Below the pieces are notes generated by a model. It saw nothing but the letters and a program-made list of their open reading frames with translations, did not search any database and was not told the origin of the DNA. A stretch of DNA of 64,000 bases from an uncultured Bryobacterales bacterium. Lineage in GTDB: Bacteria > Acidobacteriota > Terriglobia > Bryobacterales > UBA6623. How positions within the stretch are numbered: position 1 is the stretch's first letter; each line of letters begins with the position of its first letter. The stretch is taken from NCBI GenBank assembly GCA_951813065.1, contig CATOTH010000005.1, forward strand, positions 558,001 through 622,000, written 5' to 3'. Of the stretch, positions 36,757 through 61,886 are shown one piece after another. Position numbers and translations under genes: made by a program.

Positions 36757-37254
36757 TTGAGACGGGCGGGCAGCGCAGTGGGCGTTGTGGTTTCGAGGAA
36801 CGACCTGGCCGCCCTCCGAGCCGGCTGGAAGGCTCACGGCGAGCGGGTGGTCTTCACCAACGGCTGTTTCGACTTGCTGCACCCCGGTCATGTCCGCCTC
36901 CTCGAACGGGCGCGCGGGCATGGCGAGCGCCTGATCGTGGCGGTCAACTCGGACGACAGCGTGCGGGGGCTGAAGGGCCCGACCCGCCCCGTGCTGCCGG
37001 AAAGCGAACGCGCGTCCACGCTGGCCGCGCTGGCCAGCGTGGACGCGGTCACGGTCTTCGGCGAGGAAACGCCGCACGTGCTGCTCGCGACGCTGCTCCC
37101 CGACGTGCTTGTCAAGGGGGCCGACTGGGCGCACTGGATCGCGGGCCGCGAAATTGTCGAAGAGGCCGGGGGTGAAGTGCTCGCCATCCCCGTGGAGACA
37201 GGGTATTCGACAACTGACGTGGTTGCGAACATCCTGCGGATGCATTCCGATTGA
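36757..37254 (+). CDS. HldE/RfaE2-type nucleotidyltransferase
   Basis: 165 residues from a TTG at 36757; GTG at 36778 is possible. The cytidylyltransferase fold shows [16 protein letters not shown] (HxGH), [15 protein letters not shown] (key NSDDSV) and [10 protein letters not shown] at the end. This matches the C-terminal, adenylyltransferase half of HldE, which makes ADP-heptose for lipopolysaccharide core. Here it is a free-standing gene without the kinase half. It overlaps the mfd start by 4 nt. Confidence 0.88.
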
Positions 37255-40200
37255 CGCCCCTCGGACTGCGCGACCGCTTCGAGGACCTGGGTCGCCACAA
37301 GTCCTTTCTCGCGCTCCTGGCGGTGCTGCGCCAGCGCAAGCCCGTCCTGCAGCAACTGTCCGGTCTTGCATCGGCCGCCCGGGCCGCTTACTTGCTGCTT
37401 CTGCAGCGCAAGACCGGCCGCCCCGTGCTGGTGCTCACTGGCAGCCAGGCAGCCGCGGAGACGCTCCACGAGACCCTGCAGGCATGGTTCGAGATGGCGG
37501 GCGGTTCGGAAACCGACCCCGCCCCGTGCCTGCTACCGGCCCACGACGTGACTCCATTCGACGGCTTGTCCCCACACCCGGATATCTGCGAGAGCCGGGC
37601 GATCGCCCTCTGGCGCATGGCAGAGCGGCAGGTCTCCATCGTCGTCGCCCCGGTGGCGGCGGCGCTGCAGCGAGTCGCCGCGCCTGATCGCTATCGCGAG
37701 CTAGCCTGGCCGATCGAGGCGGGAGACCGGATCGACCTCGAGGAACTCGCGGCCAGCCTCGGAACGCTCGGATATAGGCGTCGTGAGCCTGTCGAGATGG
37801 TGGGGCAGTTCGCAGTGCGCGGCGGGATCCTGGACGTGTTCGCGCCGGAAACGCGGAACCCGTTCCGCCTGGAATTCCTCGGAGATCAGGTGGAGTCGAT
37901 CCGGGAATTCAATCCTGGGACGCAGCAGTCGGTCCAGCGACGCGACTCGCTCACGGTGCTGCCGATGCACGAGTACCCGGCAGGCGGGTCCGGCGAGGGC
38001 GTCCTGCCTGCCGGATGGGAGTTCAGCGCCGTCGGGAAGGAATGGCGCTCCGGAACCCTGCTCGACCTGCTGCCGGACGCGACCGTCTTGTGGATCGAGC
38101 CGACCGAGGCCAGCCAGGAAGCTGCCAAGCTGCGTGAGCGGCTCGAGGACGCCTGCGAGCGCGGCGGCGGCGACCCCCGCGAGCACTACCTGGACCTGGA
38201 CCGCTGGACGCGCGAGACCCGCTCCCGGCAACAGGTGTCGTTCAACGAGCTGGGACTGGCTGTTGAGCACCTCGGTGCGCCGGACTCATCGTGGCACATC
38301 CCGTCGCAACGCGCGGTGCGGTTCCAGGGCCGGGTCGCTCACTGCGTGCAAGAGATCAAGGCGCAAATCGGCGCAGGCATGCGCGTCCTGGTCGCAGCCA
38401 AGTCAGTCGGCGATCTCGAGCGGCTGGCAGAGATGTTTCGCGAATACGAGGTGCCCTTCCAGGTCGTGCTGCGCGAGAGACCGCGCGGATTGAGTCGCTA
38501 CCTCGAAGAGAAAGCGTACATGGCCGGCCCGGTTGCCTCGGCAATCCTGGTGCAAGCCGCGATCAGCGAGGGTTGTGCCCTGCCCGATTCCCGCCTCGCC
38601 GTGTACGGGACGCAGGATATCTTCTCCAGCTCCGACCTGGTTCCCAAGCCGAAGAAACGCCAGGCCACCGCCGCGACTTTCCTCTCCGACCTGGAGGACT
38701 TGCGAAAGGGAGACTTCGTTGTGCACGCGCAACACGGCGTGGGCCGCTACCTCGGCACCCGTGAAGTCGAGACCGCCGGACGCAGCGACGAGTTCATGGT
38801 GCTCGAATACGCCGAAGCCGCAAAGCTCTACGTTCCGCTGGCGCGCCTGGACCTCGTCCACAAGTATCACGGCGCCGGGGGACCGCAGCCATCGCTGGAC
38901 CGGATGGGGGGGCAGACATGGGAGCGGACGAAGAGGAAAGTCAAGGCGCGGCTGCTGGACATGGCCGACGACCTGCTCAAGCTCTACGCCCAGCGCCAGC
39001 TCGGTCGCGACTTCGCGTATTCGCCCGACAGCAATTGGCAGCGCGAATTCGAGGACTCGTTCGCCTACGCGCCGACAGAGGACCAGATCAGTGCCGCTAG
39101 AGAGATCAAGCGTGACATGGAGTCTACGCGCATCATGGACCGGCTGGTGTGCGGGGATGTCGGTTTCGGAAAGACCGAAGTCGCCATGCGAGCCGCTTTC
39201 AAGGCGTTGGGAGACGACAAGCAGGTCGCCGTTCTCGTGCCCACTACCGTCCTGGCATACCAGCACCTGGAAACGTTCCGGCAGCGGTTCGAGGCATTTC
39301 CGGTCGAGATCGAGATGCTGTCGCGGTTCCGCACCCCCAAACAGCAACGCGAGATCGCGGAGCGGCTGCGAAACGGCCAGGTGGATATCGTGATCGGCAC
39401 TCACCGGCTGCTGTCGAAGGACATCGAGTTTCGCGATCTGGGACTGCTCATCATCGACGAGGAGCAGAGATTCGGGGTGCGCCACAAAGAGCGCCTCAAG
39501 CAAGTCCGCAAGACCGTTGACGTGCTGTCCCTGACGGCGACGCCGATCCCCAGGACGCTCTACATGTCACTGATGGGCCTGCGCGACGTCTCGGTGATCA
39601 AGACACCACCGCAGGACCGGCTGGCGGTGCAGACAATCGTGACCGCGTACGATGACCACCTGGCGCAGTCCGCGATCCGGCGCGAGGTGTCGAGGGGTGG
39701 GCAGGTGTACTTCCTCCACAACCGGGTCGAGTCGATCGACGCGGTCGCGGGAAGGCTCGCCGCGACGATGCCCAACGTCCGCTTCCGCGTGGGACACGGC
39801 CAAATGGCCGAGCGGCAACTGGAGGACGTCATGCTCGGCTTCATGCAGCACAAGTTCGACGTCCTGGTGGCAACGACGATCATCGAGAACGGGCTCGACA
39901 TCCCCTTGGCGAACACGATGATCATCGATCGCGCGGACCTCTACGGGCTGGCGGAACTCTACCAGCTCCGCGGACGCGTCGGCCGCTCCAACCGCCGCGC
40001 CTACGCCTACCTGATGGTGCCGCCCGATCGCGAGCTGACCGATGTCGCTCGGCGGCGGCTGGGCGCACTGAGGGAGTTCAGCGAACTCGGTTCCGGTTTC
40101 AAGATGGCCGCCCTGGACCTGGAACTCCGCGGTGCCGGCAACTTGCTTGGTGGGGAGCAAAGCGGCCAGATCGCGGCGGTCGGATTTGAGACTTATACGC

Positions 40201-40688
40201 AACTGATGGAAGAAACCGTGCGCAAGCTGCAGGGCGAGGACGTCGAGGAAGCCGTCCGCTCGCAGATCACGCTGCGGGTCGATTTCCACGTGCCTCAGGA
40301 ATACGTTCCGGACGAGACACAGAGACTGCAGCTATACAAGCGCCTTGCCGCGGTCCGGAACGAGAAGGAGCGCGACGAGGCCGCGACCGATCTCAAGGAC
40401 CGCTACGGCCCGGTGCCGGCCGCTGTCAACAACCTCTTGCAGCACTCGGTGTTGAAGCACAGGGCCCAATCGATGCGGATCCCTCTGCTGGAACGCCGGT
40501 CCAACAGGCTCAAGCTGAGACTCCGCGCCGACTCGCGGATCGACCCGCAGAAGCTGATGGGGTTCGTCGCCGGGACCAACGGAGCTGTCTTCAGGCCGGA
40601 CGGCACGTTCGAATGGGAGGGCTTCGCCTTCCACGGATCGTCCCTGTTCAACGAGATCCACCGTCTGCTGGACCGTCTCGCGGCCTGA
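37251..40688 (+). CDS. mfd: transcription-repair coupling factor
   Basis: 1,145 residues, close to the usual 1,150. UvrB-like N-terminal domains 1-2 (residues about 30-340); the RNAP-interaction domain from about 480 ([15 protein letters not shown]); RecG-like helicase with [16 protein letters not shown] (Walker A) and [16 protein letters not shown] (DEEQ); helicase C with [20 protein letters not shown] domain at the end. It displaces stalled RNA polymerase and recruits UvrA. TTG start at 37251 overlaps the previous stop. It is the last chromosome-type gene before the plasmid-like segment. Confidence 0.96.
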
Positions 40689-40782
40689 AGCAAGTTCCTG
40701 CCCCGCCCGCGGCAAACCCTCTGTACAATCGAAACAGACTATATGTAGCGGCGATCCACGAAGTGCAGCGGAGCGTGTTGCC

Positions 40783-40803
40783 AGGCAGCCAAGGAGGCTG
40801 CCT
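40783..40803 (+). promoter_or_regulatory. hairpin enclosing the repA Shine-Dalgarno
   Basis: AGGCAGCC (40783-40790) and GGCTGCCT (40796-40803) form a perfect 8-bp stem with loop AAGGA. The strong SD AAGGAGG (40791-40797) lies in the loop and right arm, and the TTG start at 40803 abuts the stem. Folding would hide the ribosome binding site, as expected for copy-control of a replication initiator. Confidence 0.62.
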
Positions 40804-41948
40804 TGCAGTTCCCCCCCGAGCTAGAGCGTCACCCCACCCGCAAGCGGGCCCAGCTCGCCTACCTTCAGGGGATCGAGGCGCTCTCGCGCCACCCCGAGGC
40901 GCGTGACGCCCACATCCACTGGCTGCGCCGCCAGACGCCCGTCGCGATGAACGACGACGGGTGGATCCTGCTCGTCTATCCGACCGAGACCGAAGCCCGC
41001 CTGGCGGAGGCCAACGAGGCGATGGTGCGCCTCGGCCACAGGCTGCGCGCCATCGAGGCCGCCCAGGGGGTGGTCGCGCGGGCTGTCGGGGGAGCGAATG
41101 GCTCCGGCGGCAGCGCGAACGGCGGCAAGGCGAGGAAGAGGCCAGCGCGCCAAGAGAAACGCCAGCCCTGGGAGCGACGGCCGGTCTACATGCCGGCCTT
41201 CCTGGTCCAGACCACGCTGCCGCATCGCGAGCCGAAGGACTCGCGGTTCTTGCGTGTCAACGGAGAGGGGAGGACGACGGTCTTCACCGACCGGGCTGTC
41301 GGCCTGCCGTTCGGCGTCTACCCCAGGCTGATCGTGATCGAGCTGGCCACTGCCGCAGTCCGCACGAAGAGCCGCACGTATGTCATCGGCCGCTCGATCA
41401 ACGAACTGTTGACCCGGATGGGGATCTCGAACAGCGGCGGCTCCCGCAGTCAGGCCACGCTCGCCCGCGACCAGCTCGACCGCCTCTGCTGGGCGAAGTT
41501 CGTCACAACTCATCTCTCGAAGTACGAGCCCACCGCGCTGGGCGTGGCGGATCGGTGGCTGGAGAAGACAAGCGACGGTCTGAAGGTCACGCTCACGGAG
41601 CGCTTCTTCGAACAGGCCACGAAGTCGGCCGTGCCCCTCGACCCCTTCATCCTCCGCAAGCTCAGGCGGTCCCCGCTCTCGATCGACATTTACGGGTGGA
41701 TCACCTACCGGATGTCGACGCTGGAGCGGCCGACAACGATCTCGTGGCCGAGCATCGAGAGGCAGTTCGGGTCGGAGTACAAGCACCCGCGGCAATTTCG
41801 ATGGATGTTCCGAGCTTGCCTCAAGCGGATTGAGGAAGCATGGCCCGGGGAACTTGGCGTAGAGGTCCAGGACAGGCGAGTCGTGTTGACTCCATCCCCG
41901 CCCTCCGTGGCATCACGCACGGAGCGCCACAACGCGAAGCACCACTGA
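40803..41948 (+). CDS. repA: plasmid replication initiator RepA (RepA_C type)
   Basis: 381 residues from TTG at 40803 with SD AAGGAGG 5 nt upstream. The first 130 residues are helical and end in a Gly/Ser/Lys-rich linker. Residues about 150-330 match the plasmid-encoded RepA family: AFLVQTTLPHREPK, RVNGEGRTTVFTDRAVGLPFGVYPRL (key GLPFGVYPR), TKSRTYVIGRSINELL and RMGISNSGG. The C-terminal winged-helix region holds IYGWITYRMSTLE. It should bind the iterons that begin at its stop codon and open the origin. No parA/parB genes are seen beside it. Confidence 0.85.
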   Translation: MQFPPELERHPTRKRAQLAYLQGIEALSRHPEARDAHIHWLRRQTPVAMNDDGWILLVYPTETEARLAEANEAMVRLGHRLRAIEAAQGVVARAVGGANGSGGSANGGKARKRPARQEKRQPWERRPVYMPAFLVQTTLPHREPKDSRFLRVNGEGRTTVFTDRAVGLPFGVYPRLIVIELATAAVRTKSRTYVIGRSINELLTRMGISNSGGSRSQATLARDQLDRLCWAKFVTTHLSKYEPTALGVADRWLEKTSDGLKVTLTERFFEQATKSAVPLDPFILRKLRRSPLSIDIYGWITYRMSTLERPTTISWPSIERQFGSEYKHPRQFRWMFRACLKRIEEAWPGELGVEVQDRRVVLTPSPPSVASRTERHNAKHH

Positions 41949-41958
41949 CGCTGACGAT

Positions 41959-42103
41959 TTGCGCTGGTTTACTGACGCTTTCTTGCGGAACCAGATTTGC
42001 GCTGGTTTACTGACGCTCCTGCGCTGGTTTACTGACGCGGCCTGCGCTGGTTTACTGACGCTCCTGCGCTGGTTTACTGACGCTCCTGCGCTGGTTTACT
42101 GAC
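41959..42103 (+). repeat. six iterons of a RepA-dependent origin
   Basis: The core GCGCTGGTTTACTGAC occurs without mismatch at 41961, 41999, 42021, 42044, 42066 and 42088. The last five are spaced 22-23 nt, i.e. two helical turns, and the first 38 nt away. A partial copy (ACTGACGCTGACG) overlaps the repA stop codon. Direct 22-nt iterons immediately downstream of repA are the standard layout of an iteron-regulated plasmid origin. Confidence 0.93.
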
Positions 42104-42452
42104 ACCGCTCATATATATCTCCTGTAGCTCCTATAGCACCTGTAGATTCCACCTGTAGGATGCGCGCGCGAATGCAGCCCTCGGGGTTCGCTCCTCTGGC
42201 TGGTTCCTCAGCGCCCTGGGGCATCGCGCCAAGCTGCTCCGGACCACAAGTCGCGGCGCCCTGCGCCGGGAGAGATCCCTCTCGGAAACGACCACCCGTG
42301 GCCGAACATCGTCGCCCTCGCCGGTCGCGGCGGAGGGACGGACGAGATCCTCCAGAGCCCGATGGGCCTGTTGCGGCGGGACGGCACGATCTCCCTGTAG
42401 CACCCCGGCTGTCCTTGCAGTGCCACGGTTCCGGCGCGACCATCGCCGTAGT
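42104..42452 (+). other. origin-proximal noncoding region (AT-rich block and CCTGTAG repeats)
   Basis: 349 nt. ATATATAT (42111-42118) in otherwise GC-rich DNA could be the unwinding element. CCTGTAG recurs at 42121, 42139 and 42152, with CCTATAG at 42130. After about 42170 no repeat or convincing gene is seen; an alternative in-frame ATG for the pilin gene lies at 42420. Confidence 0.6.
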
Positions 42453-42749
42453 ATGCCGAGACCTCGAATCGATCTTCGCGGGGCGCTCGTCCTGCGGCTC
42501 CCGCTGTTGCTGGCCGTCACCGCGGCATCCGCGTTCGCGGCGGCCAGCCCCTGGGAGGGCGCCATCGACAACCTCCAGGCCGCGTTCACCGGTCCCATCG
42601 GCCGCGGGCTCAGCCTGGTCGCGATCGTCGTCACCGGGCTGATGTTCGCGTTCGGCGAGCCCGGGGGCAAGAAGGCCCTGGCCGGAGTCCTGTTCGGCCT
42701 GTCGATGGCCATCGGGGCGACGGGCTGGCTGACCTGGCTGACGAGCTGA
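42453..42749 (+). CDS. trbC: conjugal transfer pilin TrbC/VirB2-like
   Basis: 98 residues from the ATG at 42453. A long signal region (LRLPLLLAVTAASAFAAA) and two hydrophobic segments (GLSLVAIVVTGLMFAFG; LAGVLFGLSMAIGATGWL) separated by GEPGGKKA are the VirB2/TrbC pilin pattern. It would form the transfer pilus after processing. Its stop overlaps the next start (TGATG), opening a block of coupled transfer genes. Confidence 0.78.
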   Translation: MPRPRIDLRGALVLRLPLLLAVTAASAFAAASPWEGAIDNLQAAFTGPIGRGLSLVAIVVTGLMFAFGEPGGKKALAGVLFGLSMAIGATGWLTWLTS

Positions 42750-43042
42750 TGCAGGAACCTCCGCGCAAGTGGGTCGCCTCGCAGGCCCTCAATCGGCCGC
42801 TCACGATCGCGGGTTGCGAGCGCACCTGGTTCATCCTCAACGGCATCCTGGCCTACGCCCTGTACACGGCGACCTACAGCCTCACGTTCGGCGCGGCGCT
42901 GGGGCTCGCGGGTTACGCCGTCGGCGTCGCCGCCTGCCGCGAGGATCCGGCGATGCTGCGGATTATCAAGGCCGCCCAGCGGTACAGGCCGCGGTACGAC
43001 CCCGGCAAGCCGGACGCAGGGCCTGGGGTACGCCTGGTCTGA
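42749..43042 (+). CDS. trbD: type IV secretion protein TrbD/VirB3-like
   Basis: 97 residues. A short polar N-terminus (KWVASQALNRPLTIAGCERT) and one or two membrane helices (FILNGILAYALYTATYSLTFGAALGLAGYAVGV, quoted here only by its ends FILNGIL and GYAVGV) match VirB3, which partners the VirB4 ATPase at the inner membrane. It is coupled at both ends by TGATG overlaps. Confidence 0.8.
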   Translation: MQEPPRKWVASQALNRPLTIAGCERTWFILNGILAYALYTATYSLTFGAALGLAGYAVGVAACREDPAMLRIIKAAQRYRPRYDPGKPDAGPGVRLV

Positions 43043-45474
43043 TGCCCGAATCCGCGGCAGCCGTGTTCCGGAGGGCCCGGGACGAGGCGGGATCGCTTGC
43101 CTCGGAGATCCCCTACTGGGGCTGGCTGCAGGACGGGCGGACCTGCCTGACCCGGCGCGGGGAGCTGGTCACCGTCGGGGGGCTGGTTCCGCGGCCCACC
43201 GCCGGGCTGTCGCACGAGCAGCTTTCAACCGTCGTCGAGCGCTGGGTGCGGCTGCTGGGTCAGCTGGACAGCCGCACCCGGCTGTCGCTGTTCGTGCTGC
43301 GCAGGCCCCTGCCCCCGGCCGAGGCCGGCGAGGCGGGGATCGCCGGCGAGTCGGCACGGGCGCGCGCCGCGCACCTCAGCCGGAGGCTCTCACGGCTCGA
43401 GATCAGTGTCGCGTGGGCGCGGGATCCCCGGCTCAGGGCGGCCCCTTCCGCCAACGGCACGCCGGCCTGGCTGGAGCGGGGCCGGGCCGTGCTGCAGCCG
43501 GATCGCCGGCCAGCCTGGATCCGCAGCCAGGTCGAGGAGGCCTGCGAGCAGTTGCGGCAGGACGTCGACGCGCACTGCCGGCTGATCGAGGACCTGACTC
43601 CGATCCGGATCCTCGAGCCCGATGAGGCCACCCGGATCCTGAACGAGCTGGTCAACCGGCCCGGCACGGAACCGCCGACCGCGAGGGGCTCGGGGCTGCA
43701 CTGGCGCCTGGCCCAGTCCGAGTTGGAGGCGGAGCGCCGGCAGTTGCGCATCGATGGCGAGGACGCGCTCGTGTACTCGCTGGTCGAGCCCCCGTCCGAG
43801 GCGGCTGCCGACCAGCTCCGCGAGCTGCTGCAGCTGCCGGCGACGATGACGGTGTCGTGGGAGTTCCGGCGCCTGCCCACGGACAAGGCGCGCAAGCGCA
43901 TCGACAGCGCCAGGAAGTTTTTCTTCGCCAAGCGCTTCAGCATGATGGCCCACGCCCGGGACGCGGACGGAACCTCGACCGCCATGCTCGACGAGGCCGC
44001 CGACACCGAGGCGGCGCGCCTGGGAACTGCGCAGGCCGAGCTCGAGGCGGACGGGATGCCATACGGCGACCTGGCCCTGGGGCTGACTTTGCACGGCCCG
44101 CTGGAGGAGATCGAGCGGCACGACGCCGCGGTGCGGCGCATCTTCGCCTCCTGCGACGCCAAGATCATCCGGGAGAGCTACGGCCAGCTGGCGGCGTACT
44201 TCGCGCGGCTGCCCGGGGCGGCGCGTGCCAACCAGCCGCGGCCCCTGCTGGTCTCCGCCGGCGTCGCCGCGGCCCTGGCCCCGCTGTGCGGGCCGACCCT
44301 CGGGTCCCCTCGCAGCGCCCACCTGGACGAGGAGTGCCTGTGCGTCCTGGAGACTCGCGAGGGGACACCCTACCACTACGACCTGTTCGCCGGCGGCGGG
44401 GGCGACATCGGGCACACCCTGATCCTCGGCCAGACCGGGAGCGGCAAGAGCTTCCTGCTGAACTTCCTGCTGGTGTCGGCGGTCAAGTACGGTCCGCGCG
44501 TGTTCATCCTCGACCTCGGCGGGTCCTACCGCCCGCTGACACAGCTGATGGGCGGGGACTACCTGCAGCTCTCGCCGGACCCGGAGGCCCCGACCCGCGT
44601 GCGGCCGTTCTCGCTGCCGCCGGGGGAGCGGACCTTCCAGTTCCTGGCCGGATGGGTCAGGCGGCTGCTGGAGCTCGGCGGCTACGAGACCACGGGCGGC
44701 GACACCAACGAGATCCGCAAGCTCGTCGAGGACCTGTACCGGTTCGACGTCGCCGAGCGGCGGCTGGGATCGCTGGCGGAATCGCTGCTGCAGCGCATGA
44801 AGCCGGCGATGTCGCGGTGGGTCGGCAACGGGACGTGGGGCGCGGTCTTCGACAACCCGCCCGCCGAGGGCGCCGAGGATGCCTGGGGGGAGTGGCAGGT
44901 CGTCGACCTGGCCAGCGCCGCCGAGCACGACGACCTGGTCGAGGCCGCGCTGGGCTACTACCTCGAGAAGATGCGGCACGAGATCGACGATCCCGCCGAC
45001 CTGGCCCGGGTGAAGATCGCCGTCGTGGACGAGGCCTGGAAGTTCCTCAAGGACCCGTCCGTGAGCGCCTATCTCGCGGAGGCCGCCAAGACCTGGCGCA
45101 AGAAGAACGCGGCCCTGCTGCTGGCGACCCAGTCGGGCGGGGACCTGGCCAGGGCCGAGACCGCCAGGGGCCTTCTGGAGGCGACGCCCACGCGGCTGTT
45201 CCTGGCCAACCCGGAGTTCCCGCTGGAACTGGCGGAGGCCTTCCAGCTGTCGCCCGCGGAGGTCGACCAGATCCGCGGGCTGGTGCCCAAGCACGAGATC
45301 TACCTGCGCCGGACGGGCGAGGCCGAGGTGCTGCGGCTGGAGGTCGACCAGCGCTCCTACTGGCTGTATACGAGCTCGGCAAGGGACGCCGCCAAGCGGG
45401 CGCGCGCGATCGCCGAGCACGGGCTGTCCGGGGCGCTCGACCGGCTCGCCAGGGGGGCGTACCGAACGCAATGA
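43042..45474 (+). CDS. trbE: type IV secretion ATPase TrbE/VirB4
   Basis: 810 residues from ATG 43042, which overlaps the trbD stop; the frame is open further upstream but overlaps trbD. Walker A LILGQTGSGKSFLLNF at about residue 463, Walker B VKIAVVDEAWKFL near 657 and the LLLATQSGGDL motif near 695 are as in VirB4. It powers pilus assembly and substrate passage. The N-terminal 400 residues are the poorly conserved membrane-associated part. Confidence 0.93.
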   Translation: MPESAAAVFRRARDEAGSLASEIPYWGWLQDGRTCLTRRGELVTVGGLVPRPTAGLSHEQLSTVVERWVRLLGQLDSRTRLSLFVLRRPLPPAEAGEAGIAGESARARAAHLSRRLSRLEISVAWARDPRLRAAPSANGTPAWLERGRAVLQPDRRPAWIRSQVEEACEQLRQDVDAHCRLIEDLTPIRILEPDEATRILNELVNRPGTEPPTARGSGLHWRLAQSELEAERRQLRIDGEDALVYSLVEPPSEAAADQLRELLQLPATMTVSWEFRRLPTDKARKRIDSARKFFFAKRFSMMAHARDADGTSTAMLDEAADTEAARLGTAQAELEADGMPYGDLALGLTLHGPLEEIERHDAAVRRIFASCDAKIIRESYGQLAAYFARLPGAARANQPRPLLVSAGVAAALAPLCGPTLGSPRSAHLDEECLCVLETREGTPYHYDLFAGGGGDIGHTLILGQTGSGKSFLLNFLLVSAVKYGPRVFILDLGGSYRPLTQLMGGDYLQLSPDPEAPTRVRPFSLPPGERTFQFLAGWVRRLLELGGYETTGGDTNEIRKLVEDLYRFDVAERRLGSLAESLLQRMKPAMSRWVGNGTWGAVFDNPPAEGAEDAWGEWQVVDLASAAEHDDLVEAALGYYLEKMRHEIDDPADLARVKIAVVDEAWKFLKDPSVSAYLAEAAKTWRKKNAALLLATQSGGDLARAETARGLLEATPTRLFLANPEFPLELAEAFQLSPAEVDQIRGLVPKHEIYLRRTGEAEVLRLEVDQRSYWLYTSSARDAAKRARAIAEHGLSGALDRLARGAYRTQ

Positions 45475-46301
45475 GGCATCCGAAGAGACATACCGTCTTC
45501 GCCGCAACGTGGACGCTGGCCGCGGTGGGAGCCGCTGCCGGCGGCGAGGCGCGCAGGGTCCGGCTGGACTCGCTCGACGAGATCGTAGAGATCCGGACCG
45601 CGGTGCGGCACACCACGGTGATCGCGCTGCCGGCGCACGAGTCGATCGTCGACTACGTGGCCGGGGACACCGAGTTCTGGCAGATCCAGGGGGGCGGCAA
45701 CCTCGCCTACCTCAAGCCCCAGGGGAAGGGCGAGCGCACCAACGTGGCGCTGATCACGCGGAACGGCAACATCTACTCATTCCTGTGCCGGGAGGGCGGC
45801 GGCGATCCGGACCTGGTGGTGCACATCGAGGTCGGCGAGCCTGCCGAGCCCGGGGACGGCACGATCGGCACGCCCGTCCACCAGCCGGTGTTCGTGCCGG
45901 CGAGCGAGGTCGCCGACTACCAGGCGGCCGCCCGGGCGGCCGCCGAGGAGGCCTCCAGGGCAAGGGCCGCGGCGGCCGAGACGGTCGAACAGCAGGTGGA
46001 GTCCTTCCGGTCCGCCTATCCGGGGGCCATGCAGTTCGAGTACCGGCTAGAGGCGAAGGCGCGGCGGGATCCCTTCTCCGTGGTGGCGATGTGGAACGAC
46101 GGCCGGCACACCTACCTGCGCAGCACGGCGCCGGAGTCGCCGGCGATCTACGAGTCGCGGGACGGCAAGCCGAGCCTGGTCGAGTACGAGCTCACCGAGG
46201 ACGGCCTGTACGTCGCCCAGCGGGTCCTCCGGAACGGCTGGCTGCAGATCGGCAAGCAGCGGGCGGAGTGGGTCTACCTGCCGGCCAGGGGGCAGCCGTG
46301 A
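45471..46301 (+). CDS. trbG: outer-membrane complex protein TrbG/VirB9
   Basis: 276 residues; the start overlaps the trbE stop (ATGA). Signal peptide at the N-terminus (FAATWTLAAVGAAAGGEA). The VirB9/CagX pattern includes IVEIRTAVRHTTVIALP, NLAYLKPQGKGERTNVALIT (key YLKP and TNVALIT) and, at the C-terminus, DGRHTYLR and KPSLVEYELTEDGLYVAQRVLRNGW (key YELTEDGLY). It lines the outer-membrane core with VirB10. Confidence 0.88.
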   Translation: MRHPKRHTVFAATWTLAAVGAAAGGEARRVRLDSLDEIVEIRTAVRHTTVIALPAHESIVDYVAGDTEFWQIQGGGNLAYLKPQGKGERTNVALITRNGNIYSFLCREGGGDPDLVVHIEVGEPAEPGDGTIGTPVHQPVFVPASEVADYQAAARAAAEEASRARAAAAETVEQQVESFRSAYPGAMQFEYRLEAKARRDPFSVVAMWNDGRHTYLRSTAPESPAIYESRDGKPSLVEYELTEDGLYVAQRVLRNGWLQIGKQRAEWVYLPARGQP

Positions 46302-47581
46302 GCAGCTGGATCCGCAGGCCGCGCAATCCTGTCGGCACGCTGCCGAAGGGCCTGATCAACAAGGTCGGCATCATCGGCGGCGCCGTGATCATGGCCCTGG
46401 TGATCCTCACTTCGCCATCGAGCGACGAGGAAGGCGAGGCCGCGGCGGCCGGGGAATCCGTTGCCGACGGGGAGACCGTGGAGCAGGCCGCGGGCGGGGA
46501 GGGGCTCGTGCGGTCGACCGCGGACGCGATCGAGAGACTCAGGACACAGGCCGCGCGGCTGCAGGCGGCGCGCGACCAGGAAGAGGCGGACCGGCTGCGG
46601 GAGGCCACGGCCGGCGGGACGATCCCGCTCCGGCCCCGCGCCGTTGCGCAGGGGCCGCTGCCGGGCCTCGCTCCGGGCAGCGCGGCCGAGCCGGAGACCC
46701 CCGAGCAGCAGCTCCGGGAGGAGTTGCGCCTGGCCGAGATCCGGCGGGCGCACGAGGCCCTGCGGTCGCCGGTCGTGGCCTTCTCCTCGCGGCCCACCGC
46801 CGGGCAGGACGGGGCCGTTTCCGACGGGGGGCCGGAACGACAGCCCGTTACGGATCCGGCTCCCCGGGACACGGACTCCCCGCCGGCCGCCTCCCCGGAA
46901 GAGCTGGCCGAACTGCGCGTGCTGGCCGGCTCGCAGGGCGTGCCCGAGCCGGCCGATGCCGCACCGGCCCCGGCCACGCAGCCGAAGGATCCGCCGGGCT
47001 GGGAACGCATCTTCGAAGGCCAGCTCCTCGAGGCCGTGCTGGCCACCCAGCTGCGCGGCGACTTCGCCGGTCCGGTGGTCGCCATCGTCTCCGCCCCCCT
47101 GTGGTCCCGCGACCGCCAGCGGATCCTGATCCCGCGCGGCACGCGCGCGCTCGGCCGGGCCGCGGCCGTGGGAGACTGGCAACAGGCCCGGCTCGCGGTC
47201 TCCTTCCACCGCCTGCTGTTCCCCGACGGGCGCTACATCCGCCTCGAGTTCGGGGCCCTGGACCAGGCCGGCGCGAGCGGCCTGCAGGACCGCGTCAACC
47301 GCCACTACCTCTCGACCATCGGCGCCGCCGGGGCCGTGGGCGTGATCTCCGGGCTGACCCTGCGGGGATCCCAGCCGTATGCCGGCGGCACCGACGGGGC
47401 GCGGGCCGGGGCCGGCATCGGCATGGGCCGCGCCGCCGAGACGATCCTCGAGCGGTACCTGAACCGGCTGCCGACAGTCACCATCCGCGCCGGACAGCGG
47501 CTGCGGATCATCTTCACGTCCGACGCGCTCGTGCCGCGGCCGGCGTTCCGATTGCATTCCGATTCCAGGAGGACACCATGA
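46298..47581 (+). CDS. trbI: core-complex protein TrbI/VirB10
   Basis: 427 residues from GTG 46298, overlapping the trbG stop by 4 nt. A single membrane helix (KVGIIGGAVIMALVILTS, residues about 21-38), then a long Pro/Glu/Ala-rich periplasmic linker, then the VirB10 barrel from about residue 230: EGQLLEAVLATQL, ILIPRGTRALGRAA, FHRLLFPDGRYI and QRLRIIFTSD at the end. It spans both membranes and relays ATPase energy to the outer-membrane channel. Confidence 0.92.
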   Translation: MSSWIRRPRNPVGTLPKGLINKVGIIGGAVIMALVILTSPSSDEEGEAAAAGESVADGETVEQAAGGEGLVRSTADAIERLRTQAARLQAARDQEEADRLREATAGGTIPLRPRAVAQGPLPGLAPGSAAEPETPEQQLREELRLAEIRRAHEALRSPVVAFSSRPTAGQDGAVSDGGPERQPVTDPAPRDTDSPPAASPEELAELRVLAGSQGVPEPADAAPAPATQPKDPPGWERIFEGQLLEAVLATQLRGDFAGPVVAIVSAPLWSRDRQRILIPRGTRALGRAAAVGDWQQARLAVSFHRLLFPDGRYIRLEFGALDQAGASGLQDRVNRHYLSTIGAAGAVGVISGLTLRGSQPYAGGTDGARAGAGIGMGRAAETILERYLNRLPTVTIRAGQRLRIIFTSDALVPRPAFRLHSDSRRTP

Positions 47582-48514: not shown

Positions 48515-49510
48515 ATGCAGGTCGACCTGACACAGGCCCAGCAGATCCACTCGAACGATCCCGGGGCCATCAAGGCCATGCTGGACAGCCTGACCGAGGC
48601 CATGCTGGCCGACGTCGCGGGTCCCCTGCTGACCGCCGGCGAGAACATCTGGGAGGGCCTCGCGGCGGTCGTGATCGTCTGGACCGGCGTGCGGATCGCC
48701 CTGTCCGGAGGCGGATTCTCGGGCTGGGACATCGCCCGGCTGGTGACCGCGCTGATGGTGCCGCGGACGATCCTCTTTTACTACAGCACGCCGATGCCGC
48801 TCGGCGGGCAGACCTTGCCGCAGGCGATCGTGGGCATGGGGTCGTGGGTCGCCGACATGGTCACGCGCGACAGCTACTCGGCGACCTGGAGATGGCTGGG
48901 GGACTTCTGCACGCGGGCGCTCGCCGAAGCCTGGTCCGCGAGCACCGACTGGGGTGTGTTCTGGATCCTCAGCATCGGGGACATGGCCGGCAACCTGATC
49001 GCCGGCACCGTGCTGGCGGTGCTGGTGGTGTTCATGGCGATCGTGTCGCTGCTGCTGGTGGTGATCGGCTACGCCCAGGTCATCTGGGCCCAGTTCGCGA
49101 TCGCGATCGCGGTGGCGCTGGGGCCGATCTTCGTCCCGTTCCTGCTCTTCGAGCCGCTGGCGTTCCTGTTCTGGGGATGGCTGCGGACGCTGCTCACGTA
49201 CTCGCTGTACTCGGCGATCGCCGCCTGCGTCGTGCGGGTGTTCCTGGGCGCGGTGCGGGCGGCCAGCGACGGCATCTGGGAGTCGCTCACTCCCGACGTG
49301 GAGGCTCTCGGCGCGGGCCTGATGTGGATCGTCTCCTACCTCGTGCTCGCCCTGGCGGGGATCCTGGCGGCGTTCAAGATCCCCGAGCTGGCGTCCGCGC
49401 TCGTCTCCGGAAGCGTCAGCGGGGGCGGCATGCTGGGGGCGCTGGCTGCGGTGGCGACGGCCGGCAAGGCGGCCGTGATGGTCAAGGGCGGCGGGGCGCT
49501 GCGCAAGTGA
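48515..49510 (+). CDS. trbL: TrbL/VirB6 inner-membrane channel protein
   Basis: 331 residues with at least five hydrophobic helices, e.g. AAVVIVWTGVRIAL, GTVLAVLVVFMAIVSLLLVV and GLMWIVSYLVLALAGILAAF. The central loop WAQFAIAIAVALGPIFVPFLLFE carries the conserved ALGPIF/FEPLAFLFWGW block of TrbL/VirB6 proteins. It begins 37 nt after trbJ; a GGAGCAGC sequence precedes the ATG. It forms the inner-membrane passage for the DNA substrate. Confidence 0.88.
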   Translation: MQVDLTQAQQIHSNDPGAIKAMLDSLTEAMLADVAGPLLTAGENIWEGLAAVVIVWTGVRIALSGGGFSGWDIARLVTALMVPRTILFYYSTPMPLGGQTLPQAIVGMGSWVADMVTRDSYSATWRWLGDFCTRALAEAWSASTDWGVFWILSIGDMAGNLIAGTVLAVLVVFMAIVSLLLVVIGYAQVIWAQFAIAIAVALGPIFVPFLLFEPLAFLFWGWLRTLLTYSLYSAIAACVVRVFLGAVRAASDGIWESLTPDVEALGAGLMWIVSYLVLALAGILAAFKIPELASALVSGSVSGGGMLGALAAVATAGKAAVMVKGGGALRK

Positions 49511-49543: not shown

Positions 49544-50569
49544 ATGGATCGCGGTTTCGACCCACGGGAGGGGGCGCAGGAAGCGCCGAGCCGTCGTGCC
49601 TCGACAGTGGTCCACGGTCGGAGGGTGCAGCTGCCGGAGAACCTTGACCGGTCCCCCAGTGCCTGGCGGCGGCTGGAGGACAAGGCGAGGCTGGAAGCGG
49701 AGGTTGCGGAGCGGGAGGAGCGGGAGAAAACCAGGCGGCCCGTCCGGAGGCGCCGGGTGGACGACCGGACCCGGACCGGCCACCGCAGGGACGTCGACCC
49801 GCGGCGCGAGCGCGTCAGCTTCGCCGCGCGCCAGGCGCGGACGCTGGAGGACCTCGGGATCTACCGCTGCGCGGCCGTGGCGGACATCGCCGACGAGCGC
49901 TTCGGGGGCCATCCCTACGCCGCCCGGCGGGGCATTGACCAGCTCAAGCGGCGCGGGCTGGTCGCGGAGTTCTCCGCACGGGGCCCCAAGGGAGGGGCCT
50001 TCAAGGTCGTGCATCTCACCCACGCCGGACGGCAAGAGGCAACGACCGGGCGGCGCGACACGCTGGATCCAGACCAGCGCTACTGGGGCGGCCGCGCCAA
50101 GGCGCGGGAGGCCTCCCACGAGGCCGGGGTCTACCGGGCCGGGCGGAAGGAATGCCGCCGGCTTGAGGGGGAAGGCGCAACCGTCACGCGGATCCGCTGC
50201 GACTCGGAACTCAAGTCGGCCGTCGCGAAAGCCGCGGAGAAGGCCCGGACCCGGTCCGGACGTGAGGCGGCCGAGCAGGTCAAGCGGGCCGCGGCGGCGG
50301 CGCTCGGAGTGCCGGTCGTCGACGGCAAGGTGACCTACCCGGACCTGCAGATCGAGTACCTCGACGCGGAGGACCGCGGTGGGCGGGTCAACGTCGAGGT
50401 CGCGACCGGGCACTACCGGGGAAAGGATATCTCCGCGAAGCTGGCGGCGGGATTCCGGATGCACGCCGCGGACGGCCGGGCGAAGCGCAAGATCGACCTG
50501 GCCCGACTGGAGGGCCACGGCGGAGGCGGCGGAGGCGGCCGCGGCGAAGGGGGGATGCTGGAGCTGTGA
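49544..50569 (+). CDS. replication-relaxation family-like protein (candidate mobilisation protein)
   Basis: 341 residues. A basic, Arg-rich N-terminus of 90 residues precedes a winged helix (TLEDLGIYRCAAVADIADERF; GIDQLKRRGLV; VVHLTHAGRQEA). A second domain has VYRAGRKECRRLEGEG and PDLQIEYLDAEDRGGRVNVEV (key PDLQIEY...NVEV), which resembles the Replic_Relax fold with a PD-(D/E)xK-like core. It ends in a Gly-rich tail. Position after trbL and before the coupling protein suggests DNA processing for transfer; this is inference. Start ATG at 49544. Confidence 0.6.
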   Translation: MDRGFDPREGAQEAPSRRASTVVHGRRVQLPENLDRSPSAWRRLEDKARLEAEVAEREEREKTRRPVRRRRVDDRTRTGHRRDVDPRRERVSFAARQARTLEDLGIYRCAAVADIADERFGGHPYAARRGIDQLKRRGLVAEFSARGPKGGAFKVVHLTHAGRQEATTGRRDTLDPDQRYWGGRAKAREASHEAGVYRAGRKECRRLEGEGATVTRIRCDSELKSAVAKAAEKARTRSGREAAEQVKRAAAAALGVPVVDGKVTYPDLQIEYLDAEDRGGRVNVEVATGHYRGKDISAKLAAGFRMHAADGRAKRKIDLARLEGHGGGGGGGRGEGGMLEL

Positions 50570-51528
50570 TCGCACACCTGCGGGGCCGCGAGAAGGGCAT
50601 CCAGGAACTCGGTTTCAAGCCCGAGGATGCCGAGTGGATCGCCCTGGTCGCGCTGCACAGCGGCGTGTTCCTGCGGTCCCAGTACGGGCGGTTCCACGGT
50701 GAGAACGGAAAGGCTGTCCGCAAGCGCTCCGAGCGCCTCGCGGGCGACCTGCTCCGGCGGGACCTCGCCGTGGAATCCGATGTGCCCGGTTTGGGCCGGG
50801 TCTGCCGACTGAAGTCCAGGACGGTCTATCGTGCTCTCGGCGCCGAGCACATCCGCCATCGCAGGGATGCAGCCCAGGCCACGGTGCTCCGGCGGCTGCT
50901 GTCCCTGGACTTTGTCCTCGGTGATCTCGAGTCGCCCTGGCTGCCCACCGAGCCCGAAAAAGTGGCGGCATTCGAGGCCGTGGGGGTTCCGCGGCGGGTG
51001 CTCCCGAAACGGATCTATGGGTCGAAAAAAAAGGGGCGGACAGAGCGGCCATTCGGCTGGAAAATGCCGGTCGCGTTCGGTGGTGCGCTAGCGCGGTTTG
51101 TCTTCGTTGACATCGGCGGCGAGACGCATGACGAACTGCTCTCCTGGGGTGCGGAGCACGCCCACCTGTGGTCCGTGCTTGGAGCACGTGGCATACCCGT
51201 CGAGGCCGCGGCGGTTTGTATGTCTGATCATCGATTGCGGGAATCCAAGCGCATTCTGACCAGGTGGACAGAGGGCGGGATCACAGTACCCGGGGTGGAC
51301 ATGAATGATGCCCAACTGGACGAGTTGAAGCGGGCCGAAGGGGCGTTGGCTTCGCTCGACGAGCCGGCGATGTTGCAGTGGGGTGGGTTGAACGGCACGA
51401 TCAAGCGAGTCGCGGAGTTGCAGAGACGGAGGGATGCCGCAAGTCAGGAGGGCGCGCAGCGGATTCGTCTGGACGCGGTTCAGACGCACTCACTGCGATT
51501 GGGGTGGGCGGGGGCTGCCGAGTGCTAG
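50566..51528 (+). CDS. unrecognised protein with N-terminal winged-helix-like region
   Basis: 320 residues from GTG 50566, overlapping the previous stop by 4 nt (GTGA). N-terminal 120 residues look like a winged helix (DAEWIALVALHSGVFLRSQY; RSERLAGDLLRRDLAVE; VYRALGAEHIRHRR). Then RRLLSLDFVLGDLESPWLPTEPEKVAAFEAVGV (quoted by its ends LLSLDFVL and TEPEKVAAF), a KKKGRTERPFGWKMPVAF stretch and FVFVDIGGETHDELLSW. The last 100 residues are charged helices. The architecture parallels the preceding protein; the pair may act together at the origin of transfer. No family name is certain. Confidence 0.6.
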   Translation: MIAHLRGREKGIQELGFKPEDAEWIALVALHSGVFLRSQYGRFHGENGKAVRKRSERLAGDLLRRDLAVESDVPGLGRVCRLKSRTVYRALGAEHIRHRRDAAQATVLRRLLSLDFVLGDLESPWLPTEPEKVAAFEAVGVPRRVLPKRIYGSKKKGRTERPFGWKMPVAFGGALARFVFVDIGGETHDELLSWGAEHAHLWSVLGARGIPVEAAAVCMSDHRLRESKRILTRWTEGGITVPGVDMNDAQLDELKRAEGALASLDEPAMLQWGGLNGTIKRVAELQRRRDAASQEGAQRIRLDAVQTHSLRLGWAGAAEC

Positions 51529-51817
51529 CCGTGGTAGTCCAGAGTGTCGCGGGCCCATCAAGGGGTGGCGACAGATATCGCAGAGACCTTGCGACATCTG
51601 TGATTTCTGTAACGGCTTTTGAACCGCGGACTTCCATGAGGGCCAACGCCGTCTCGTGGCAGTCGACCGGGTTGGATCGTGGTAGGAGCGACCCCCCCTT
51701 TCGGGCCCTGTGGACTACCACGGGATCGTCGCTCTGCGACATGATCCCGCGTCCGGGGGTCGCTCCTACGAATTCATCCCTGCGGGAAGGCGGCCGCTGT
51801 GCCCCGGGGGCGTCGCG
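51529..51817. other. hairpin-rich intergenic block before traG (candidate oriT)
   Basis: 289 nt without a gene. Hairpin 1: ACAGAT(51571-51576) with ATCTGT(51596-51601) around TCGCA/TGCGA. Hairpin 2: GTAGGAGCGACCCCC (51682-51696) with its exact inverse at 51755-51769, enclosing a third stem CGGGATC (51721-51727)/GATCCCG (51743-51749) with inner GTCGC/GCGAC. The GTAGGAGCGACC arms look like the REP sequences of pseudomonads. Location between possible mobilisation genes and the coupling protein suits an origin of transfer, but no nic consensus is recognised. Confidence 0.55.
51682..51769. repeat. REP-like nested palindrome
   Basis: Perfect 15-bp outer arms with a 58-nt interior that itself folds into a 12-bp interrupted stem. 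The whole block could form a cruciform or a strong RNA structure in the traG leader. Confidence 0.75.
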
Positions 51818-53848
51818 ATGACGCCGCGGCTGCTGGCGTGGGTGGCCTTCGGCACGGTGGCCGCGCTGGCGCGGTGGCGCTTCTGGCCGTGGCCAGCAGC
51901 CGGCGAGGCGCCGGCGCTGGACCTGGTCGCGGTCTACGATCCGGCGCTGTACTGGGCGTTCTGGCTGTGGGCGTATGCCTGGCCGGTGGCGGCCGTCGGT
52001 GTCGTCGGCTCCCTTGCCCTGTCGGCCTGGGATGTGTGGGGCCCGCGGGGCGCGCCAGCCGTCGTCCGCGGGAAGCTGCCATCGTGGCCGCTGAGCGGGA
52101 ACGAGCCCGAGCCCGCAGTCGTGGTCGGGGAGCAGCACCACCCGGTGAGTCCGGTCGAGGTCGAGCGGCCGACGTGGCTGACCGTGCCGGCTGCCGGGCT
52201 GTTCACCGGGACGGCCATATTCGGGGCCACCGGCAGCGGCAAGACAGCCGCCTGCATGCGGCCGTTCGTGGCTCAGCTTTTCAGCTGGCAGGCGGCCGAT
52301 CCGGAGAAGCGGGCGGGCGGATTGGTGCTGGAGGTCAAGGGCGACTTCTGCCGGCAGGTCCGCGAGGTCCTCAAGGCCTGCGACCGGGAGGATGACTATG
52401 TCGAACTCGGCGTCGGCGGGCGGTGGCAATGGAACCCTCTCGACGCCCCCGAGGTCGATTCGTATTCGCTGGCCTACCAGCTCAGCTCGCTGCTGAACCA
52501 GCTGTTCGGCCGGGGCAAGGAGCCCTTCTGGCAGCAGGCGTCGACCAACCTGCTGCGCAACCTGGTCGAGCTGCATCGCATCCACGGCAGCGGCTGGGTG
52601 ACGCTGCGGGACCTGTACCGGTGCGCGATCGACCGCGGGCTGCTGCAGGCCCGCCTGGTGCAGGCGCGCGCCGAGGTGCGCGAGGAGCCGGCCATGCGGG
52701 TCACGGTCCGGGCGGAGGACCTCACTGTGAATGCCGTGGCCTTGGACCGCTTCGGGCCCTGGGCCCGTGAGGGCGACCGGCTGTCCGCGCCCATGACGCG
52801 CGAACTGCTCGACGCCCTCGAGGAGGCCGGCATCGACGGAACCCGCGAGCGGCCCTCCAGGCCGCCCGTCGCCCCGGATGCGGAGGGCCGACTGGAGGCG
52901 GCGGAGCGCTGGCTCGAGCATGACTGGCGGCAGCTCGAGACCAAGCTGAGGACGTCGATCGTCGAGGGCGTCTCGTCGTTCCTGGGGATCTTCGACCAGC
53001 CCGACGTCGCACGCGTGTTCTGCCCGGGGCCGCCGGCTGTCGCCGCAGGGCCGCAGGGCGGCACGACGTTCAGTGGGGAGTTGCCCTCGCTGCTGCGGCC
53101 CCTGCGGCGGCTGCGCGAACTGATCGAGAACGGCACCGTGCTGTGCCTCAACATGCCGACCGGGACGAGCCCCGCGCTGGCCCGGGCGGTGGGCGTGATG
53201 CTCAAGGGGGCCTGGCTGCAGGCGGCGCTGCGGCGGCCAGCCGACATGGCCGCCGAGCCGGAGCGCTACTTCCGGCCGGCGGTCTTCGTCTGCGACGAGT
53301 ACCAGTCGTTCGCGACGGTCGGGGAGGACGAGCCGGCCGGGGACGAGAAGGCCTTCCCCCTGACGCGGCAGTCGCGGGTGATCCCGATCGTGGCCACGCA
53401 GTCGGTCTCGTCGCTGAAGAGCGCGACGCGGGGGGATGCCTGGAAGACGCTGCTGCAGTCGTTCCGGACGCGGGTGTTCCTGACCTCGGCCGACGCCGAC
53501 ACCTCCAGGGCGGCGTCGGAGATGTGCGGGACGGTGGAGCGGCTCAAGGCCAGCTACAACTTCAGCGAGAACTCCTCGCAGGCGGGCGTCTCGTTGCTGA
53601 GCGGCAAGGCCGGGGGAGCGCGGGCGAGCGTGGGGGCCGGGCGGTCCTACCAGGCCCGCCGGGAGCCCCGGTTCCACCCGAACGACTTCGAGGCGCTGGG
53701 CACGTGCCAGGCGATCGTGATCCCGTTCGACGGCTACAACGCGATGCCGGCGCGGCGGGTGTATCTCAAGCCCTGGTTCCTGCCCCGGGACAAGCCGTAC
53801 TGGCAGGCGGTCCGGGAGGGCGAACTCGGCGGGACGGGAGGACTCTGA
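51818..53848 (+). CDS. traG: conjugative coupling protein TraG/VirD4
   Basis: 676 residues from the ATG at 51818; the longer frame to 51710 would translate the palindrome. N-terminal membrane helices (LLAWVAFGTVAALARW; WAYAWPVAAVGVVGSLAL). Walker A AIFGATGSGKTAACMRP near residue 130, Walker B AVFVCDEYQSFATVGE near 487, and IVATQSVSSLKSA near 525, as in VirD4-type ATPases. It docks the relaxosome to the secretion channel. Its stop overlaps a 19-codon ORF that in turn overlaps trbB. Confidence 0.9.
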   Translation: MTPRLLAWVAFGTVAALARWRFWPWPAAGEAPALDLVAVYDPALYWAFWLWAYAWPVAAVGVVGSLALSAWDVWGPRGAPAVVRGKLPSWPLSGNEPEPAVVVGEQHHPVSPVEVERPTWLTVPAAGLFTGTAIFGATGSGKTAACMRPFVAQLFSWQAADPEKRAGGLVLEVKGDFCRQVREVLKACDREDDYVELGVGGRWQWNPLDAPEVDSYSLAYQLSSLLNQLFGRGKEPFWQQASTNLLRNLVELHRIHGSGWVTLRDLYRCAIDRGLLQARLVQARAEVREEPAMRVTVRAEDLTVNAVALDRFGPWAREGDRLSAPMTRELLDALEEAGIDGTRERPSRPPVAPDAEGRLEAAERWLEHDWRQLETKLRTSIVEGVSSFLGIFDQPDVARVFCPGPPAVAAGPQGGTTFSGELPSLLRPLRRLRELIENGTVLCLNMPTGTSPALARAVGVMLKGAWLQAALRRPADMAAEPERYFRPAVFVCDEYQSFATVGEDEPAGDEKAFPLTRQSRVIPIVATQSVSSLKSATRGDAWKTLLQSFRTRVFLTSADADTSRAASEMCGTVERLKASYNFSENSSQAGVSLLSGKAGGARASVGAGRSYQARREPRFHPNDFEALGTCQAIVIPFDGYNAMPARRVYLKPWFLPRDKPYWQAVREGELGGTGGL

Positions 53849-53907
53849 TGCAGATGGTTGCAGTTCGATTCGACGACCACGGGACTGCCCACGGCGGGAG
53901 GCCCTGA
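53848..53907 (+). CDS. 19-residue coupling ORF between traG and trbB
   Basis: ATG at 53848 shares its A with the traG stop (TGATG), and the ORF's own TGA (53905-53907) shares its A with the trbB ATG (TGATG). The product, MQMVAVRFDDHGTAHGGRP, has no recognised domain. The double overlap suggests it serves to carry ribosomes from traG to trbB. Confidence 0.45.
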   Translation: MQMVAVRFDDHGTAHGGRP

Positions 53908-54863
53908 TGCCGGCGCTGGACCGGGTTTTGTCCCTGCTTCCCGAAGTCGTGCGCAAGGCCTTCGAGGACGAGACCGTCAGCGAGCTCATGATCAACGGGC
54001 CCGGCAGGTACTTCGTCGAGCGCGGCGGCGGGCAGCCCGTCGAGGTCGAGGCCCCGGATCTGACTGCGGAAGACGTCTACGCCGCCGCGATCCATATCGC
54101 GCGGCCGCTCGGCCTGGAAGCCGGCGAGAAGGTCCCGATCGTCGACGCCCGGCTGGACGACGGCTCGCGCGTCGCCATCGCGCTGCCGCCCGTCGTCCAG
54201 TACGCAGCCATCACCATCCGCCGGTTCGGGCGGCGGCAGTTCAGCGCCGAGGACCTGATCGAGCAGGGGTCGCTCCCGCGGTCCGTCTACGAGGAGGCGG
54301 TCGAGCACCTCCGGGGGCGGCGCAACGTCCTGATCGCCGGTGGGACCGGAAGCGGCAAGACGACGCTGCTGCAGGCCCTCGCCGGCGTGATCCCCGACGA
54401 CGAGCGGATCCTGGTGATCGAGGACACCACCGAGATCCAGCTGGAGGCGAAGAACCTGCTGCAGATGGAGGCTCGCGACCTGGCCGGGTCCGGCCTGTCC
54501 ATCCGGGACCTGGTGAAGGCCTCGCTGCGGCACCGGCCGGACCGGCTGATTCTGGGGGAGGTCCGCGGCCCTGAGGCCGCCGACCTCATCCAGGCGCTAA
54601 ACACCGGCCACGGGGGCTCGCTGTCCACGATCCATTCCAACGACGCCGAGAGCGCGCTGGTGCGGCTGGCGTCCTGCGCCCTGCAGGGCGGTGAGGGGAT
54701 CTCCTGGCCGGTGCTGTGCATGCAGGTCGCCCAGGCGATCGACTTCGTGATCCACGTCGAGCGCCGCGACGGGCGGCGGGCGGTGTCGTCCGCTGTGCGG
54801 GTCCTCCGCGCGCAGGGGGACGGCTGGGAAACGCGGCGCTTCTGGCCGCTGGCGGGGAGATAA
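53907..54863 (+). CDS. trbB: secretion ATPase TrbB/VirB11
   Basis: 318 residues. N-terminal domain with FEDETVSELMINGPGRYF; RecA-like domain with LIAGGTGSGKTTLLQALA (Walker A, residue about 150), the Asp box EDTTEIQLEAKN, RLILGEVRGPEAADLIQA (Walker B) and NTGHGGSLSTIHSN (His box). A hexameric cytoplasmic traffic ATPase. In RP4-type systems trbB starts the trb cluster; here it is placed after traG. A GATAAT overlaps its stop codon. Confidence 0.93.
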   Translation: MPALDRVLSLLPEVVRKAFEDETVSELMINGPGRYFVERGGGQPVEVEAPDLTAEDVYAAAIHIARPLGLEAGEKVPIVDARLDDGSRVAIALPPVVQYAAITIRRFGRRQFSAEDLIEQGSLPRSVYEEAVEHLRGRRNVLIAGGTGSGKTTLLQALAGVIPDDERILVIEDTTEIQLEAKNLLQMEARDLAGSGLSIRDLVKASLRHRPDRLILGEVRGPEAADLIQALNTGHGGSLSTIHSNDAESALVRLASCALQGGEGISWPVLCMQVAQAIDFVIHVERRDGRRAVSSAVRVLRAQGDGWETRRFWPLAGR

Positions 54864-60385: not shown

Positions 60386-60412
60386 CGTCGCGCCTCCCGG
60401 GGAAGGAGAGCG

Positions 60413-60613
60413 ATGCAACACAGACAATCGAATCGCAGGCGGGGCCGGGGGGCTCCAGCGGTGCCGGGGCCTCCGGAGCCGGCGTTCGTCGAGCTGGATC
60501 CGGAGGAGGCCGCCGAGTACGGGGCGTTCCGCGACGACGTCGAGCTCGAGGACGTGCTCGAGGCCGGGGACCTGCCTGATGCCGGGGCCGGGAGGGCTGG
60601 CTATGGCGCATAG
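60413..60613 (+). CDS. small acidic hypothetical protein
   Basis: 66 residues. Basic start (RQSNRRRGRGA), then a strongly acidic middle (ELDPEEAAEYGAFRDDVELEDV in two halves ELDPEEAAEYG and DDVELEDV). A GGGGAAGGAGAG sequence directly upstream of ATG is a good ribosome binding site. The 3' end overlaps the next gene by 11 nt. Function unknown; acidic small proteins beside ArdC could be DNA mimics, which is speculation. Confidence 0.55.
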   Translation: MQHRQSNRRRGRGAPAVPGPPEPAFVELDPEEAAEYGAFRDDVELEDVLEAGDLPDAGAGRAGYGA

Positions 60614-61884: not shown

Positions 61885-61886
61885 CG

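Follow-up and report, generated by a model that had tools for sequence, protein, structure and literature searches.

A chromosome-to-element junction downstream from mfd

We were interested in what lies behind an abrupt change of gene content in the genome of an uncultured Bryobacterales bacterium. The DNA analyzed (hereafter, the window) is a stretch of 64,000 nt, C5:558001–622000, in a 5.59-Mb genome assembled into 11 contigs (G000). Within it, mfd (37251–40688, + strand; Pfam TRCF, UvrB_inter, CarD_TRCF_RID, and helicase domains) forms the chromosomal left flank and ends at 40688, and a replication initiator gene starts at 40803; the switch from chromosomal to element DNA is thus present where the first-pass annotation had flagged it. 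That annotation had offered two readings, an integrated conjugative plasmid or a chimeric contig, and had reported no tRNA, integrase, or recognized attachment site. The comparison of composition that it proposed gave a rise in G+C content from ∼0.65 to 0.70–0.73 past 42 kb of the window. It was right about the tRNA, as none is found at the junction. The 3′ end of a tmRNA was considered as an integration target and rejected: a permuted tmRNA called by ARAGORN across the junction (40176–40759) is false, since Rfam has no hit in that interval and the genuine ssrA is located at C6:347235.

The same-genus neighbor genomes are Bryobacterales metagenome genomes, from bacteria that we take to be sponge symbionts. 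Their mfd orthologs are 76%–62% identical to that of G000, and in most of them lepA comes next. Seven (G002, G004, G006, G007, G008, G009, and G010) run from mfd directly into lepA, which provides the empty site that had been suggested as a check; a different gene follows mfd in G001, G003, and G005. A TACAATC or TACAATT motif is conserved upstream of lepA in the relatives.

The lepA gene of G000 was found on another contig (C10:346323–347687, − strand), with a tyrosine integrase gene upstream (C10:347774–348733; PF00589, E = 4e-13) that points out of the element. The 18.3 kb upstream of lepA, up to the contig end, is element DNA. This second junction, in which the integrase borders lepA, had also been named as something to look for, and it supplies the integrase that had been reported missing, at the far end of the element and outside the window. 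A gap of 6 bp separates the integrase stop codon from CTGTACAATCGAA, a 13-bp direct repeat with one copy at 40721–40733 (attL), corresponding to the TACAATC upstream of lepA in relatives, and a second at C10:347752–347764 (attR), adjoining lepA. The two element end regions have no other stretch of 9 bp or more in common, and the left copy of the repeat lies inside the very interval in which no attachment site had been recognized. We assigned the two ends as attL and attR because mfd and lepA are neighbors in the relatives and the 13-bp repeat is found at both edges. The 7-bp crossover (spacer), CAATCGA at 40726–40732, is found at each end at a set distance from conserved arm motifs, and the left element arm, AACAGACTATATGTAG (40733–40748), repeats the integrase-side arm, CATGATGTGGCCTGTA, in partly inverted form.

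The junction is a real insertion and not an assembly artifact, and the assembly can be trusted across it. We consider it very probable that the mfd-side junction is the exact left end (attL) of a conjugative element inserted by its own integrase.

Contig C5 terminates at 626330, 4.3 kb past the window and 27.6 kb into the element; this part and the 18.3 kb on C10 make up the recovered element. The contig end cuts a SpeE-like gene whose full-length homologs have 479–498 codons. We tried the start of C10 as the continuation of this open reading frame and rejected it; the remainder of the gene is absent from C10, and at least ∼0.7 kb of the element middle is therefore missing. With the middle unassembled, the two parts are joined by inference, and we treat them as one element because VirB9 on C10 completes the C5 transfer set and the element in G008 is broadly collinear with C5 plus C10. 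The G008 genome is a single contig (C1, 6.19 Mb) that was opened inside a homologous element; VirB4 is absent from the contig ends, and this chromosome contig is therefore probably gapped there. RepA is found at the start of G008, and replacement of the chromosomal origin by the RepA replicon was considered and rejected, as dnaA is normal in seven out of seven genomes tested. A plain six-frame tblastx comparison was uninformative owing to high G+C.

Gene content of the element

The initiator, iterons, and transfer genes that had been read from 40803 onward all held up. The initiator gene, repA (40803–41948, + strand; RepA_C, PF04796), has a TTG start behind AAGGAGG and is followed by six iterons, TGCGCTGGTTTACTGACG (41960–42107), mostly 22–23 bp apart with one spacing of 38 bp. 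Comparable iteron arrays follow repA in seven other elements. Homologs of repA were present in 19 of the 61 genomes searched; RepA relatives occur on many plasmids and are only distant (<40%).

Next on the + strand are genes for a TrbC/VirB2 pilin (42420–42749; Pfam TrbC), a VirB4/TrbE ATPase (42769–45474) with an 80% identical homolog beside repA in G003, TrbI/VirB10 (45509–47581), TrbL/VirB6 (48515–49510; Pfam), a VirD4/TraG coupling protein (51710–53848; Pfam TrwB_AAD_bind and TraG-D_C), and a VirB11/TrbB ATPase (53907–54863). VirB8/TrbF (63445–64000, − strand; Pfam VirB8) continues past the window end (L003:2445–3167). The C10 part carries the integrase, a serine resolvase, a pentapeptide-repeat protein, ParA, two transposases, and, near the contig end, VirB9/CagX. 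The element therefore has VirB2, B4, B6, B8, B9, B10, and B11 of a type IV secretion system together with the coupling protein VirD4. The "full transfer system" of the first-pass annotation is nearly that, although the window end cuts through VirB8, VirB9 is encoded on C10, and neither Pfam nor NCBIfam recognized a relaxase among the element ORFs scanned, which come from the assembled parts with the middle missing. ParB was likewise not recognized in the assembled element.

Two conserved proteins encoded upstream of the coupling protein gene are candidates for the processing of transfer DNA. The first (49544–50569, + strand), between TrbL and VirD4, has a 63% identical homolog in the same gene order in G008 and no Pfam or NCBIfam match. 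The second (50566–51528, + strand) has a 51% identical homolog, also in the same gene order in G008, and no family match; a single-sequence structure model of this relaxase candidate was uninformative (pLDDT of 34).

Further genes on the + strand encode a pentapeptide-repeat protein (54873–55856; 49% identical to a homolog in the G008 element), an ArdC-like antirestriction protein (59763–61766; ArdcN and MPTase-PolyVal domains), and a DUF5131 protein (61812–62846). We also observed a Matrixin-like metalloprotease gene (57736–58728; weak Pfam match) on the − strand, against the transfer genes. One transposase within the C10 part (L083:17834–19747) combines a DruA-type domain at its N terminus with DDE transposase domains in one fusion protein. 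Adjoining VirB9 is cargo that looks by eye like a chaperone-usher (Csu-type) pilus cluster (L084:273–4406 on C10), in which the sole Pfam match is CarboxypepD_reg, in one frame.

The element shows several hallmarks of an integrative and conjugative element (ICE), having a recombinase at its edge, attL and attR as direct repeats, and an empty site in relatives. It is, with high confidence, an ICE that combines its own RepA/iteron replicon and ParA with a VirB/Trb-type transfer system, putatively capable of self-transfer.

A hairpin immediately before repA, AGGCAGCC-AAGGA-GGCTGCCT (40783–40803, + strand), contains the repA Shine–Dalgarno sequence in its loop and 3′ arm. A stem–loop is found at the equivalent place in nearly all of 12 elements and is kept with changes in both arms in diverged relatives; two-sided changes were seen in three out of seven pairs, with a negligible covariation term. 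Going by the sequence, the hairpin may add translational control of repA.

A family of elements with matched crossovers

We sought RepA and integrase homologs in 61 genomes and obtained ten pairs of left and right ends (the repA end and the integrase end) from six genomes of the bacterial family. In the paired elements, one end carries an inward-facing repA and the opposite end an outward-facing integrase gene. Most carry a terminal motif of about GGTAGCACATGATGTGG at the integrase end and an inverted version, about ACTACAT, at the repA end. The reconstructed attP is a palindrome around the 7-bp crossover, with 9–14 of 16 arm positions paired (nine in the G000 element and 10–14 in the nine others), and the target flanks of the crossover are weakly palindromic. 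Related elements in five other genomes share the layout and are found at other loci with other crossover sequences; as read from these insertions, the element belongs to a family that lands at a different site each time.

Across the ten pairs, the crossover is equal at the two ends at 69 of 70 positions; between elements, agreement is 30%, which is the chance level. The single exception is a 1-bp mismatch between the ends of one element, G006b. Since pairs were first matched by eye and pairing by longest common substring is not discriminating for the shortest repeats, we ran a fixed-offset test, in which crossovers were taken at set distances from the two end motifs. The five own pairs agreed at 34 of 35 positions, and 51 non-partner combinations agreed at a mean of 2.0 out of seven (maximum of four). 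In genomes with two copies, the partner was itself chosen by the crossover, which amounts to one binary choice per genome. The two copies in G006 have integrase regions that are 97.2% identical and crossovers that agree at four of seven positions, and those in G003 have integrase regions that are 94.6% identical and crossovers that agree at three of seven. Near-identical copies thus match in their crossovers at chance level, so the crossover changes far faster than the element. The ordinary part of this system is the ICE; the less ordinary part is its element-specific, matched 7-bp crossover.

When the flanks are re-joined with a single copy of the crossover, a 576-codon sulfatase-like ORF is restored in frame in G003, as is a 171-codon DinB-like ORF in G015 (both names come from reading the sequence and not from a family search). 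In G008, the flanks share the crossover, but one gene is not clearly rebuilt.

The matched ends bear on how targets are chosen. A Tn916-like process would use a donor-derived coupling sequence with no need for a match in the target, and later mismatch repair would make the ends equal. The diverse targets, variable crossover, outward integrase, and inward transfer genes are compatible with this, as is the mismatched G006b. Coupling sequences in Tn916 are donor-derived and may mismatch the target (PMC12084037), whereas here the two ends are identical at 69 of 70 positions in ten elements; we regard such a process as unlikely.

Another reading, also improbable in our judgment, is that the G000 element is a decayed, immobile remnant that retains its ends and some transfer genes. 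The unrecognized relaxase and the two transposase genes in the C10 part speak for it. Against this, the element has intact ends, and the reading frames for the integrase, resolvase, RepA, VirB4, VirD4, VirB11, and ParA are all open. Moreover, paralogs are found at different sites in relatives, so the element family has been mobile.

A full replicon (RepA, iterons, and ParA) would also be expected of a replicating plasmid that had entered the chromosome by homologous or illegitimate recombination, with no dedicated integrase taking part. This origin is very unlikely given the integrase gene 6 bp from the crossover, the integrase and repA at the ends of ten elements, and a 7-bp crossover set between palindromic arms. 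Finally, that a chromosomal contig was wrongly joined to a separate plasmid after mfd might be suspected from the metagenome assembly, the sharp G+C change, and a contig that stops 27.6 kb into the element, but this is excluded for practical purposes, since an independent contig links the other element end to lepA, the neighbor of mfd in relatives, with the same 13 bp, and two other family members interrupt genes that flank joining restores in frame. Integration was therefore the correct one of the two readings first proposed.

Comparison with known systems and a proposed mechanism

In architecture the element is closest to Tn4371-family ICEs, and in its relaxed-target behavior it is closest to Tn916. 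Tn4371-family ICEs (PMC2789088) likewise have a tyrosine recombinase at one end, repA and parA, VirD4/TraG with trb genes, short direct repeats at the ends, and several target sites; of their gene set, repA, parA, VirD4, and the VirB/Trb genes are present here and parB was not recognized. An 8-bp attB, TTTTTCAT or a close variant, is common to Tn4371 elements (PMC2789088), whereas here the crossover has 7 bp and is different in every element (CAATCGA in G000, with the nine others all different), and repA occupies the extreme end of the element, away from the integrase. A search of 72,556 plasmids at E = 1e-10 gave no match to the integrase, which suggests that it is far from intTn4371. Among curated and solved proteins, the closest to the integrase are mostly XerC/XerD/XerA-type recombinases, all with low scores.

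The Tn916 family (PMC12084037, PMC11658703, PMC4321634) shares with our elements the use of many targets, a short variable crossover around which palindromic sequence is preferred, and recombination genes at one end with transfer genes at the other, the circle connecting both. It differs in its coupling sequence, which is 6 bp long and can mismatch the target, and in its preference for AT-rich sites, in contrast to the 7 bp, equal at the two ends, in GC-rich hosts seen here; RepA with iterons stands in place of the rolling-circle functions of Tn916. The strand-biased SE elements of Vibrio (PMC9345347) have tyrosine recombinases, imperfect inverted C/C′ end motifs, and a short variable spacer in common with our family. 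Unlike the element described here, which has a single integrase, a serine resolvase, and a transfer system, they have a 6-bp spacer and two unusual recombinases, are non-conjugative, and circularize with strand bias.

For an ICE inserted by its own integrase, we propose the following course of events. The XerC/D-like integrase would excise a circle in which attP is located ∼60 bp upstream of repA. This attP would pair with a chromosomal site in which an identical 7-bp sequence is set between loosely similar palindromic flanks, and strand exchange would occur at the edges of those 7 bp. Identical crossovers at the two ends would be expected if the integrase needs a matching target 7-mer or if mismatches are repaired later. 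We favor matching with occasional tolerance; a mismatch tolerated now and then would let the crossover drift from insertion to insertion, and the single mismatch in G006b is what such an event would leave. In the integrated state, lepA would keep its TACAAT because insertion duplicated it.

Transcription of the resolvase–integrase genes in the circle would run on across attP to reach repA and the transfer genes, which have the same orientation; no terminator-like site was found on the reading strand around attL or the integrase end. Tn916 couples the expression of its transfer genes to excision (PMC11658703). Judging from gene orientation, excision would similarly switch on the replication and transfer genes here, since the resolvase–integrase genes of the circle would be directly upstream of repA and the transfer run. 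We tentatively suggest that this integrase family might select its targets mainly by identity of the 7-bp crossover with weak palindromic flanks, that a drifting crossover might redirect the next insertion, and that attP, placed between the integrase and repA, might let excision turn on replication and transfer.

Conjugative elements of Bryobacterales appear to be little described, and a narrow literature search on mobile elements of Bryobacterales (Acidobacteriota) returned nothing on point. Exact ends are now given for an element family that several genomes from a single bacterial family carry. Its ten natural insertions, with the crossover readable at both ends, offer a case that separates matched from unmatched crossover models for relaxed-target tyrosine recombinases.

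Several further loci were noted. G000 encodes a second integrase of the same family (C9:261849–262817; 57% identical), which has a right end of its own with the crossover CGATAGG. No repA-type left end was found for this copy, which may be a remnant or may belong to an element whose left end is of another type. One element copy in G006 (C167) is apparently inserted inside the VirB4 gene of another transfer system, an element within an element. Elsewhere in G000, a second TrbC/VirB2-like gene (C5:149690–149832; 77% DNA match) apparently belongs to another type IV secretion locus.
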